A stretch of 34,717 nt of DNA from Thiotrichales bacterium (lineage in GTDB: Bacteria > Pseudomonadota > Gammaproteobacteria > UBA5335 > SLRW01), in assembly GCA_003567955.1 (NCBI GenBank), contig PWYF01000025.1, positions 1-34,717 on the forward strand. The letters are read 5' to 3'. Of this stretch, positions 5,742 to 24,623 are shown piece after piece (the first letter of the stretch is position 1; the number at the start of each line of letters is the position of its first letter). Both the position numbers and the translations under genes were made by a program. Below the pieces are notes generated by a model. It made no database searches, had not been told where the DNA came from, and saw only the letters and a program-made list of their open reading frames with translations.

Positions 5742-6011
5742 TTAAGGAAACACTGATTTATTCGTCACGCCTCAGGCCTTGCCAGCGTCCTGGTATCAAG
5801 GCGCAACTTTGCAGGCGTATCGAGAATACGTCAAAAAGTTGCAACGCAGAGACCGGGACGCTGGCAAGGCCCCGAAGGGCGGACCCTGCGGCGCCCATCT
5901 GCGGCGTTGCCGTGCTTGCAAAGGCAACCAGCCTTCGACTGCGCACGGCGCCTTGCATATGGACGCCGCAGAGCCCGCTGAGACGCGACGAATAAATCAG
6001 TGTTTCCTTAA
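5742..6011. repeat. Giant palindromic repeat element, copy 1 (long form, three-arm structure)
   Basis: Perfect 25-nt terminal inverted repeat 5742-5766 / 5987-6011; second stem 5775-5794 / 5852-5871; third 5803-5810 / 5835-5842; apical hairpin 5816-5820 / 5826-5830; extra arm 5886-5898 / 5959-5971 enclosing gttgcc/ggcaac. Shares termini and core with 24319-24494. Confidence 0.95.
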
Positions 6012-16308: not shown

Positions 16309-17055
16309 ATGACTGACCATATGGATCGTCCCGTTCGCTGGCTGAGTATTGTTGCTCTGTCACTGGCCATACTCGCCGGCCTGGCTACAGCCACAGCCGT
16401 GCTGGGTTACCGCCTGGATTGGTGGGATTTCGGTGGCGCCATGGGCTGGCTGCGCTGGAGTTTGATACTTGCGCTTGGCGGCCTGCTGGCAGGCCTTGTC
16501 ACCCTTGTCATCTCATATTTCAGGTGGCATGTGTCCGGACTGGCTTCAGGGGGCGTGGCAATCCTGCTGGCGCTGATCGTGGCCTGGCCCATGGTGGATG
16601 GCATCATCAAGGCCCGCAGTCTGCCCGTGATCCATGACATCAGCACCGACCTCGACGAGCCGCCCCCCTTCGAGGCGGTGTTGCCCCTGCGCGGGGATGC
16701 GGCCAATCCAGCGCAATATCCCGGCGTGGAAGTGGCCGCACAACAACGACAGGCCTGGCCGGAACTCGGGCCGCTGATCACCGGCACACCCCCGGACAGC
16801 GCTTTTCAGGCAGCGCTGGAAACCGCCGCTGACATGCGCTGGGAGATTGTCGCCGCGGACCCGCAACGCGGGCGTATAGAGGCCGTGGACACCACGTTCT
16901 GGTTTGGCTTCAAGGATGACATCGTCATCCGCATCCGCCCGGACAATGGCGGCAGCCGTATCGACGTACGCTCCAAATCCCGTGTCGGCCGCAGCGACCT
17001 CGGCACCAACGCCACCCGAATCAAGCACTTCCAGAGGGCGTTATTAAGTGATTAG
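16309..17055 (+). CDS. DUF1499 domain membrane protein
   Basis: 248 aa; several N-terminal TM segments, then DUF1499-like WEIVAADPQRGRIEAVDTTFWFGFKDDIVIRIRPDNGGSRIDVRSKSRVGRSDLGTNATRIKHF. Confidence 0.88.
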   Translation: MTDHMDRPVRWLSIVALSLAILAGLATATAVLGYRLDWWDFGGAMGWLRWSLILALGGLLAGLVTLVISYFRWHVSGLASGGVAILLALIVAWPMVDGIIKARSLPVIHDISTDLDEPPPFEAVLPLRGDAANPAQYPGVEVAAQQRQAWPELGPLITGTPPDSAFQAALETAADMRWEIVAADPQRGRIEAVDTTFWFGFKDDIVIRIRPDNGGSRIDVRSKSRVGRSDLGTNATRIKHFQRALLSD

Positions 17056-17071
17056 GTGGTTAAGTGATTAC
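17044..17071. repeat. Degenerate TGATTA word array (left)
   Basis: ttaagtgattaggtggttaagtgattac; includes the last codons and stop of the DUF1499 gene. Confidence 0.75.
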
Positions 17072-17139
17072 GTCGCGGGACAGCAGCTTGCCAGCCTGAT
17101 AACGCCGGTTTCGCGCTGATAGTCACTAAACAAAAAAGC
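17064..17139 (+). repeat. ~76-nt intergenic repeat element E1
   Basis: gtgattacgtcgcgggacagcagcttgccagcctgataacgccggtttcgcgctgatagtcactaaacaaaaaagc; reverse complement of E3 (17450-17525) with about 7 differences in 76. Confidence 0.9.
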
Positions 17140-17162
17140 GGGCCTCAACGGCCCGCTTTTTT
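17132..17162. terminator. Bidirectional-looking intrinsic terminator
   Basis: aaaaaa gcgggcc tcaac ggcccgc tttttt. Confidence 0.85.
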
Positions 17163-17221
17163 GTACTCCAGCCTGGCTGCGCGTGCGCAGGCGTTGCAGC
17201 TCTGCACCTCGGCTTCCCGCG

Positions 17222-17272
17222 ACTTAATCACCTAATCACATAACCACGTAATCACGTTTTAGGTGATTACGT
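17222..17272. repeat. Degenerate TGATTA/TAATCAC word array with its own hairpin arms
   Basis: cgacttaatcacctaatcacataaccacgtaatcacgttttaggtgattacgtcg; outer 14 nt pair with one mismatch. Confidence 0.8.
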
Positions 17273-17346
17273 CGCGCGATACCGGAATGCCAGCCTGATA
17301 ACACCGGTTTCGCGCTGAAATACCGCATATGGAAAAACAGAAAAGC
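17263..17346 (+). repeat. Intergenic repeat element E2 (diverged copy of E1)
   Basis: gtgattacgtcgcgcgataccggaatgccagcctgataacaccggtttcgcgctgaa..., shares gccagcctgataac(a/g)ccggtttcgcgctga with E1. Confidence 0.85.
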
Positions 17347-17350
17347 GAAA

Positions 17351-17388
17351 CATGAAGCACATGAAGCACATGAAGATCATGAAGGAAG
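17351..17388. repeat. ATGAAG word array, left arm
   Basis: catgaagcacatgaagcacatgaagatcatgaaggaag; mirrored by 17415-17446. Confidence 0.85.
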
Positions 17389-17414
17389 ATTTTGAAAGGA
17401 ATGATTAAAACCTT

Positions 17415-17446
17415 ATCTTCTTCATTTCTTCATGGTCTTCATGTTC
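17415..17446. repeat. ATGAAG word array, mirrored right arm (CTTCAT words)
   Basis: atcttcttcatttcttcatggtcttcatgttc. Confidence 0.85.
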
Positions 17447-17449
17447 AAA

Positions 17450-17525
17450 GCTTTTTTGTTTGGTGACAATCAGCGCGAAACCGGCGTTGTCAGGCTGGCA
17501 AGCTATTGTCCCGCGACATAACCAC
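17450..17525 (-). repeat. ~76-nt intergenic repeat element E3 (inverted copy of E1/E2)
   Basis: gcttttttgtttggtgacaatcagcgcgaaaccggcgttgtcaggctggcaagctattgtcccgcgacataaccac. Confidence 0.9.
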
Positions 17526-17556
17526 GTAATCACGTAATCACGTAATCACGTTTTAA
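17516..17556. repeat. TAATCACG word array (right), overlapping the ugd stop codon
   Basis: cataaccacgtaatcacgtaatcacgtaatcacgttttaa; three near-exact tandem cgtaatca units. Confidence 0.85.
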
Positions 17557-23072: not shown

Positions 23073-23137
23073 TGGTAATCCCGTGTGCCTTTCATTAAAA
23101 TGTGTCGCCCTTCGCCAACAGCCAATCGAGGTCTGCC

Positions 23138-24322
23138 TTGAATATTCGACTCTCCGAGCGTGTCCAGAGAATCAAGCCATCCCCTACCCTGGCCGTGACC
23201 GCGCGCGCCGCCGAACTGCGTGCCGCCGGACAGGATGTTATTGGTCTGGGAGCCGGAGAACCGGACTTCGATACCCCGGAGCATATCAAGCAGGCCGCCA
23301 GCGACGCACTCGCCCGCGGCGAGACCAAGTATACGCCCGTTGATGGTACCCCCGCGCTCAAGCAAGCCATCATCGACAAGCTCCAGCGCGATAACGGCCT
23401 GGCCTACCAGGCTGACCAGATTCTGGTCTCCTGTGGCGCCAAGCAGAGTTTTTTCAACCTCGCCCAGGCTCTGCTCGACAGTGGCGACGAGGTCATTGTA
23501 CCCGCGCCCTACTGGGTGTCGTACCCGGATATGGTGCTCATCGCCGATGGCAAACCGGTGGTGGTCAGCGCCGGCATGGACCAGCACTTCAAGATCACAC
23601 CGGAACAACTGGAAGCCGCGATTACCCCGCGCACCCGTCTGCTGGTGCTGAACAGCCCCTCCAACCCCACCGGCGTAGCCTATAGCCGCGCCGAGTTTCA
23701 GGCCCTGGGTGAAGTGCTCAAAAAACATCCGGATATTCTCATCGCCACTGACGATATCTATGAGTACATCCTCTGGAACGACGAGGGCTTCAGCAATATC
23801 GCCATGGCGGTGCCGGAGCTCAAGGAGCGCACCATCGTCATCAATGGTGTCTCCAAGGGCTATTCCATGACCGGCTGGCGGATCGGCTATGCGGCCGGGC
23901 CGGCCGAGCTGATCAAGGCCATGAAAAAAGTGCAGTCCCAAAGCACCTCCAACCCGGCCTCGTTGTCACAGGCAGCATCGGTGGCCGCGCTCAATGGCGA
24001 TCATGGCGAGGTTAAAAAGATGGTGGCCGCTTTCCGCGAACGCCATGACTTTGTCCACCGCCGGCTCAATGAACTGCCCGGGGTCGAATGCCTGCCCTCA
24101 GACGGCACCTTCTACGCCTTCCCTTCATTCCAGGGTGTGATTGATCGCCTGGATGATGTCGCCGACGATGTGGCGCTGGGCGAGTATCTGCTGGAGCAGG
24201 CCGGCGTCGCGCTTGTGCCCGGCTCGGCCTTCGGCCTGGACGGTCACATGCGGCTGTCCTTTGCCACCAGCATGGATAACCTGGAAAAGGCCCTGGAGCG
24301 CATCGAAAAGGCGCTCTCTTAA
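23138..24322 (+). CDS. Class I aminotransferase (aspartate aminotransferase-like)
   Basis: [50 protein letters not shown]...[13 protein letters not shown]...[20 protein letters not shown] (PLP Lys). TTG at 23138 or GTG at 23102 may be the start. Confidence 0.94.
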
Positions 24323-24494
24323 GGAAACGCTGATCAATTCGTCACGTCTCAGGATTGACCCGTGTTTTGGTATCAAGGCGCGACTTTGCAGGCGTATCGA
24401 GAATACGTCAAAAAGTCGCAACGCCGAGACCGGAACACGGGTCAATCCACGCAGGACCCGCTGAGACGCGACGAATTGATCAGCGTTTCCTTAA
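24319..24494. repeat. Giant palindromic repeat element, copy 2 (short form)
   Basis: Perfect 25-nt terminal inverted repeat ttaaggaaacgctgatcaattcgtc / gacgaattgatcagcgtttccttaa; second stem ggattgacccgtgttttggt / accggaacacgggtcaatcc; core ggcgtatcgagaatacgtcaaaaagtcgc. Same architecture as 5742-6011. Confidence 0.95.
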
Positions 24495-24547: not shown

Positions 24548-24623
24548 TCCCCGGTAGCTCAGTTGGTAGAGCGGGTGACTGTTAATCACTAGGTCGGCGG
24601 TTCGAGCCCGTCCCGGGGAGCCA
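24548..24623 (+). tRNA. tRNA-Asn (anticodon GTT), CCA encoded
   Basis: tccccggtagctcagttggtagagcgggtgactgttaatcactaggtcggcggttcgagcccgtcccggggagcca; 7-bp acceptor tccccgg/ccgggga, TpsiC ggttcgagc, anticodon loop actGTTaat. Confidence 0.97.

Follow-up and report, generated by a model that had tools for sequence, protein, structure and literature searches.

What keeps the two arms of a long palindrome paired while the bases within them are exchanged? The question is raised by positions 5742–6011 of the window, the whole 34,717-nucleotide stretch of Thiotrichales DNA analysed here, together with a second palindrome at 24319–24494. A preliminary description had taken the two for copies of one family differing by compensated changes, and had offered two reasons for this, a selected folded molecule or arms continually rewritten by palindrome-templated repair. 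Both copies are present, and alignment by hand places them in a single repeat family. Recounting by hand returned the same exchanges as before: the 25-nt outer arm differs at three positions between copies and 3/3 are matched on the opposite arm, stem 2 carries eight left-arm differences of which seven are compensated and one gives a T.G pair, and stem 3 shows one A-T to G-C exchange. The copy at 5742–6011 is full-length, whereas 24319–24494, though correctly assigned to the family, is an internal-deletion copy that has lost the mini-hairpin together with most of the third arm. The parts of the two copies are given below (coordinates, strand, feature).

5742–5745, no strand: left 4-bp target TTAA of copy 1 (YTAR-type), a flank; the 4-bp duplication is drawn from empty sites in relatives and from statistics
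5742–5774, plus strand: left outer arm of copy 1, in which the terminal inverted repeat starts GGAAACACTGATTTATTCGTC at 5746
5775–5871, plus strand: hairpin domain 1 of copy 1, with variable stem 2 (5775–5797/5849–5871) and the conserved core CAAGGCGC..GCAACGC
5871–5879, plus strand: central mini-hairpin CCCGAAGGG of copy 1, its closing C-G pairs invariant in 31 lineages
5881–5976, plus strand: hairpin domain 3 of copy 1, CTGCGGCGTTGC..CTTG..AAGG..GCGCCTTGCA, an inverted homologue of domain 1
5977–6011, plus strand: right outer arm of copy 1 (GCTGAGACGCGACGAATAAATCAGTGTTTCC), including the right TTAA target at 6008–6011
24319–24351, plus strand: left outer arm of copy 2, including the TTAA target at 24319–24322
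24352–24448, plus strand: hairpin domain 1 of copy 2, with stem arms 24352–24374/24426–24448
24449–24460, plus strand: domain 3 remnant of copy 2; relative to full-length copies, most of domain 3 and the mini-hairpin are deleted
24461–24494, plus strand: right outer arm of copy 2, including the right TTAA target at 24491–24494

A full-length element is laid out as a TTAA flank, an outer stem of ~33 bp, domain 1, the CCCGAAGGG mini-hairpin, domain 3, and the outer stem again. Domain 1 is a variable ~20-bp stem enclosing a conserved core, and the core motif CAAGGCGC ... GCAACGC recurs on the opposite strand in domain 3, the part of the element that is most widely conserved. The family is not limited to two copies, as had been supposed, because the host genome (2.32 Mb in 270 contigs) contains about 40 elements with 112 BLAST matches. 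The terminal-arm motif matches this genome 127 times, against once with a reversed-pattern control. Full-length copies in the host genome measure 268–271 bp, and several cases besides the 24319 copy are internally deleted; judging from their sequences, three of these forms (L035, L043, and L046) could have arisen through loss of sequence between short direct repeats. Folding energies of −115.8 and −168.6 kcal/mol are reported for the two window copies (z about −15, 0/200 dinucleotide shuffles). As had been noted earlier, no ORF lies inside the element and no named family was recognized for it: an Rfam search returned nothing above gathering score, the matches being chance hairpins and none of them credible, and literature searches found no described family that matches it.

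In the surroundings of copy 2, the TAA at 24320–24322 within its TTAA target doubles as the stop codon of the ORF at 23102–24322. An insertion at the end of a gene can be harmless, since the YTAR target itself includes TAA or TAG. A tRNA gene (Rfam RF00005) occupies window positions 24548–24620, 54 bp downstream of the same copy. Direct and inverted repeats also cluster elsewhere in the window, at 17039–17550, with 101-nt arms that are 88% complementary and repeat units centered on TTAAGTGATTACGT and CGTAATCACGT; this cluster is unrelated in sequence to the element.

Close matches to the element are found in the same genus and family as the host. At a strict threshold, 21 of the 387 gammaproteobacterial genomes have matches with the same architecture built on different stems, and a motif scan of species genomes matched at least 111 stretches which, among the matches listed, come from Thiogranum, Microbulbifer, Halothiobacillus, Guyparkeria, Marinobacter, Thiobacillus, Methylobacillus, Propionivibrio, Woeseiaceae, Cellvibrionaceae, and others. 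For 64 of these 111 or more stretches the bounds of an outer stem could be drawn, and the resulting elements mostly measure 263–275 bp, with ends that are usually CTAG- or TTAA-like. Taken over 57 such elements (among the matches listed), the outer 26 bp are 94% paired inside the element, and across these 57 the left arms have a median identity of 27%, which is near chance in an ungapped comparison where register shifts lower the figure. Three motif matches with no detectable outer stem, L234, L240, and L301 (among the matches listed), are probably chance or fragments; they come from Methylocystis, a Rhodobacterales strain, and a Lachnospiraceae MAG. The plasmids, phages, and viral contigs searched contained no element copies. 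The complete Guyparkeria-group genome G386 carries six copies (seven matches) compared with roughly 30–40 matches in each of two related species, a low number that could reflect lineage-specific amplification or loss.

Retention of pairing while the pairs themselves are exchanged, which had been proposed from the two window copies, is real and class-wide across lineages. Among 30 Guyparkeria elements, standard pairs make up 96.4% of cells against 83.0% in shuffles, and fall to 36–43% when partners are slid. Two-sided changes affect 43 pairs in these elements, with a score reached by 0/500 shuffles. Over 31 lineages, compensated changes are seen at 47 of 62 predicted pairs and many outer-stem positions display all four Watson–Crick types, while domain 3 shows compensated changes at 22 of 31 pairs in 16 lineages. 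Some pairs in the element are constitutively G.T.

Evidence that the element inserts as a unit comes from the joined flanks of copies in the complete Guyparkeria genome G292, which were searched against the sister species G174 and G386 and revealed empty sites with a clean join. The empty site of L109 has the target CTAG, L139 has CTAG/CTAG flanks and an empty site in a sister species, and L146 has TTAT/TTAT flanks with an empty allele reading CTAT. Of 75 copies, 20 carry the same 4-mer beside both GGAA/TTCC ends, where shuffled pairing gives 5.2 (maximum 13 of 2000), and six of these 20 are non-palindromic (examples are CTAA, TTAT, CCAG, CAAG, and TTAG). A YTAR motif stands on at least one side of 45/75 copies and near an end of 50/64 elements in other lineages (among the matches listed), and the flanking 4-mers of many copies are now mismatched. 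Together, the empty sites and the 4-bp YTAR-type duplication show insertion by cut-and-join. A TA duplication of the IS630 type was dropped because the non-palindromic flanks CTAA/CTAA, TTAT/TTAT, and CCAG/CCAG favor a duplication of 4 bp. The TTAA at both termini, previously counted as part of the repeat, is best read as duplicated target lying outside the element proper. Eight full-length copies are common to the two Guyparkeria species, so most insertion sites differ between them. Short, non-coding, and multi-copy, with terminal inverted repeats, empty-site polymorphism, and target-site duplication, the element has the characters by which a MITE is recognized. At one shared site the element lies in opposite orientation in G292 (L124) and in G174 and G386 (L129/L349), by inversion in place. 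Inversion of this kind is known from inverted repeats.

IS5 uses YTAR targets and has GGAAGG-type ends. Escherichia coli IS5A starts with TTAT followed by GGAAGGTGCGAATAAG, Pseudomonas syringae ISPsy2 has the ends CTAG followed by GGAAACTCTG and GGAAGGTCTG followed by TTAT, and an IS5-family element on an M. nauticus plasmid starts with TTAG followed by GGAGACTCTGAATAAGTC. Guyparkeria elements start with GGAAACTCTG or GGAAGGTCTG, the ISPsy2 decamers. The start of an IS5-type transposase gene in Marinobacter sp. SS21, with the end TTAG followed by GGAGACTCTGAATAAGTC, lies 230 bp from an element, and the element end there (CTAG followed by GGAGCCTCTGATTAACTC) is identical to the neighboring IS5-type end at 15 of 18 bases, the likeness of the terminal repeats to IS5-family ends spanning 10–18 bases only. 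An IS5-family element sharing the element's ends was found neither in the window's genome nor in Guyparkeria. DDE_Tnp_1 and DDE_Tnp_1_2 domains are absent from the window's genome and from the complete genome G292, and the latter contains no long element bounded by terminal-repeat pairs at transposon spacing. With no autonomous partner in these genomes, their copies may be orphaned. The closest paralogs in G292 and G174 are 6% diverged compared with 3–6% for most orthologs, so the recent sources of species-specific insertions are not seen. Two candidate partners were rejected: an IS4-family transposase near an element-like end in G002 (L316), because it has its own terminal repeat CACTGCTGTCCCA, and a DDE_Tnp_1 match in G000 (L315), because the gene is degenerate and its 2.8-kb contig shows no element ends near it.

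Constant-length copies of ~270 bp, empty sites, YTAR duplication, absence of coding, and IS5-like ends all point to an IS5-type MITE. We consider it probable that the element is a non-autonomous transposon of this type in which pairing is kept by selection on transposing lineages. It is probably moved in trans: an IS5-group transposase supplied from elsewhere would cut both inverted ends, the cut ends would be joined to a staggered 4-bp cut at CTAG- or TTAA-like sites, and copies with matching arms would be those that keep transposing.

The timing of compensation bears directly on this proposal. At the eight loci common to two Guyparkeria species, stem changes comprise 51 one-sided, 3 compensated, and 1 other. 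Guyparkeria paralogs at 6–10% divergence show 139 compensated and 460 one-sided changes (ratio 0.30), and beyond 20% divergence compensated changes exceed one-sided ones (ratio above 1.6). In the window's own family, pairs less than 6% divergent have 1 compensated change versus 21 one-sided, and those at 6–10% have 85 versus 122. Compensation is thus rare at shared loci and among close paralogs and becomes commoner with divergence, implying that it accumulates along lineages that are still transposing. The imbalance at shared loci likewise implies that pairing is maintained mainly in transposing lineages and decays after insertion. Since pairing is kept across lineages and lost at fixed loci, the covariation records selection on transposing lineages rather than in-place repair, and it is not necessarily the sign of an RNA.

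Different parts of the element may owe their pairing to different causes. The outer stem consists of the terminal inverted repeats, and since a single transposase has to accept both of them, exchanges in this stem need no folding. This reasoning fails for the inner domains, as no inner stem spans both halves of the element. In these domains a folded strand or cruciform, which might arise on single-stranded DNA as it is replicated, probably helps mobilization, and this is the reading we prefer. The earlier proposal of a selected folded molecule is therefore retained for the inner hairpin domains, where a folded single strand or cruciform is the likeliest reason, and gives way to the simpler transposase reason for the outer stem. 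More tentatively, and with considerable doubt, we suggest that some factor besides the transposase could recognize the inner domains as a conserved module, in the form of folded single-stranded DNA or a cruciform, and that this module could have let a single miniature lineage keep up with IS5-type ends as these changed across the class. If so, the element would be a structured parasite whose inherited trait is its fold rather than its sequence.

Selection for an RNA would also preserve pairing, if each copy were transcribed and the cloverleaf RNA were functional as a terminator, RNase III site, or sRNA. The very strong fold, class-wide covariation, and constitutive G.T pairs agree with this. 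In addition, stems at the eight shared loci change more slowly than unpaired sites (4.1% versus 7.2%, p=0.003) and their mismatches include G.U 20 times versus 8 for A.C (p=0.036), a pattern suggestive of some role for resident copies. However, the rare, young mismatches over all copies are balanced (G.U 58, A.C 52), and with neither strand asymmetry nor G.U excess they do not indicate an RNA; G.U/A.C counts on folding-program columns are biased toward G.U and were left out of the evidence. Resident copies also decay mostly one-sidedly, most sites do not keep their copy from one species to another, a single species of the genus carries just 6 copies against about 30–40 matches in each of its relatives, and Rfam holds no such family. 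We regard an RNA as an unlikely explanation.

Homogenization of the arms in place, by template switching inside the palindrome (quasipalindrome correction), would produce compensated changes with no need of selection. Hairpins are known to be generated and preserved by template switching (PMC8794818), and two loci agree with its action here: L149/L171, with two compensated exchanges including T-A to A-T, and L124, where the element is inverted in place relative to L129/L349. However, unbiased correction should yield compensated changes about as often as reversions, and the 51 to 3 excess of one-sided changes at the eight shared Guyparkeria sites, with 21 to 1 among the closest copies in the window's own genome, speaks against the continual rewriting that the preliminary description had envisaged. 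Post-insertion decay of pairing argues against it as well. As the general cause of pairing we find template switching very unlikely, although the few compensated changes at fixed loci may be due to it. Independent loss of pairing in further copies, which had been named as evidence against maintained structure, is seen in resident copies and not in the lineages of the family. Least credible is a REPIN-like element moved as single-stranded DNA by a RAYT (Y1 HUH transposase) that recognizes two inverted hairpins as a folded strand, for although two inverted hairpin domains do occur in the cloverleaf and REPINs are reported to show compensatory changes as well as a clover configuration (PMC3116915), the 4-bp direct target duplication indicates a staggered double-strand cut rather than HUH chemistry, the ends match those of the IS5 family, 1.36 Mb of loci gave two weak RayT matches and no convincing RAYT, and the length is 270 bp rather than about 70–100.

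An IS5-type MITE thus remains our preferred identification. Its analysis separates pairing kept at a locus, by selection or repair, from pairing kept only along mobile lineages that are still moving, two sources that are usually confounded in covariation analysis. Mobile DNA whose two ends must fit one enzyme can mimic structured RNA in tests of covariation, so screens for new RNAs ought to include a look for target duplications and empty sites. Conservation of the inner cloverleaf over many families despite replacement of its stems poses a testable question about a role for folded DNA or RNA in bacterial transposition.

Among known systems, IS5-family MITEs (presumed partners IS5 and ISPsy2) resemble the element in having no ORF, inverted ends of the GGAA/GGAG.. 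kind, a YTAR-type 4-bp target, dozens of dispersed copies, and degradation by internal deletion. In contrast to them, its ~200-bp interior consists of two inverted hairpin domains and a mini-hairpin, and the architecture and short motifs of this interior persist across Gammaproteobacteria (including the former Betaproteobacteria) while nearly all stem sequence has been replaced. Literature searches found no described MITE with a comparable structured interior.

Integron attC sites combine variable stem sequence with a conserved fold, and in this respect they are similar. Unlike them, the element has no recognized attC boxes, cassette, or integrase context, and is inserted with a target duplication. 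ERIC and Correia (NEMIS) elements are likewise intergenic palindromes, of 100–200 bp, that occur in Gamma- and Betaproteobacteria and fold in RNA (see also PMC10969869). The present element is larger than these, forms a cloverleaf, uses another target, and has no sequence match in Rfam or BLAST. It differs from REPINs in its greater length, IS5-like terminal repeats, and 4-bp target duplication, and no RAYT link was found in the 1.36 Mb of loci scanned. What it shares with REPINs and the REP-RAYT system is a pair of inverted palindromic modules in a hairpin or clover, compensatory changes, and a population of copies within the genome, and they provide the nearest precedent for compensatory change in a palindrome that is mobile (PMC3116915).
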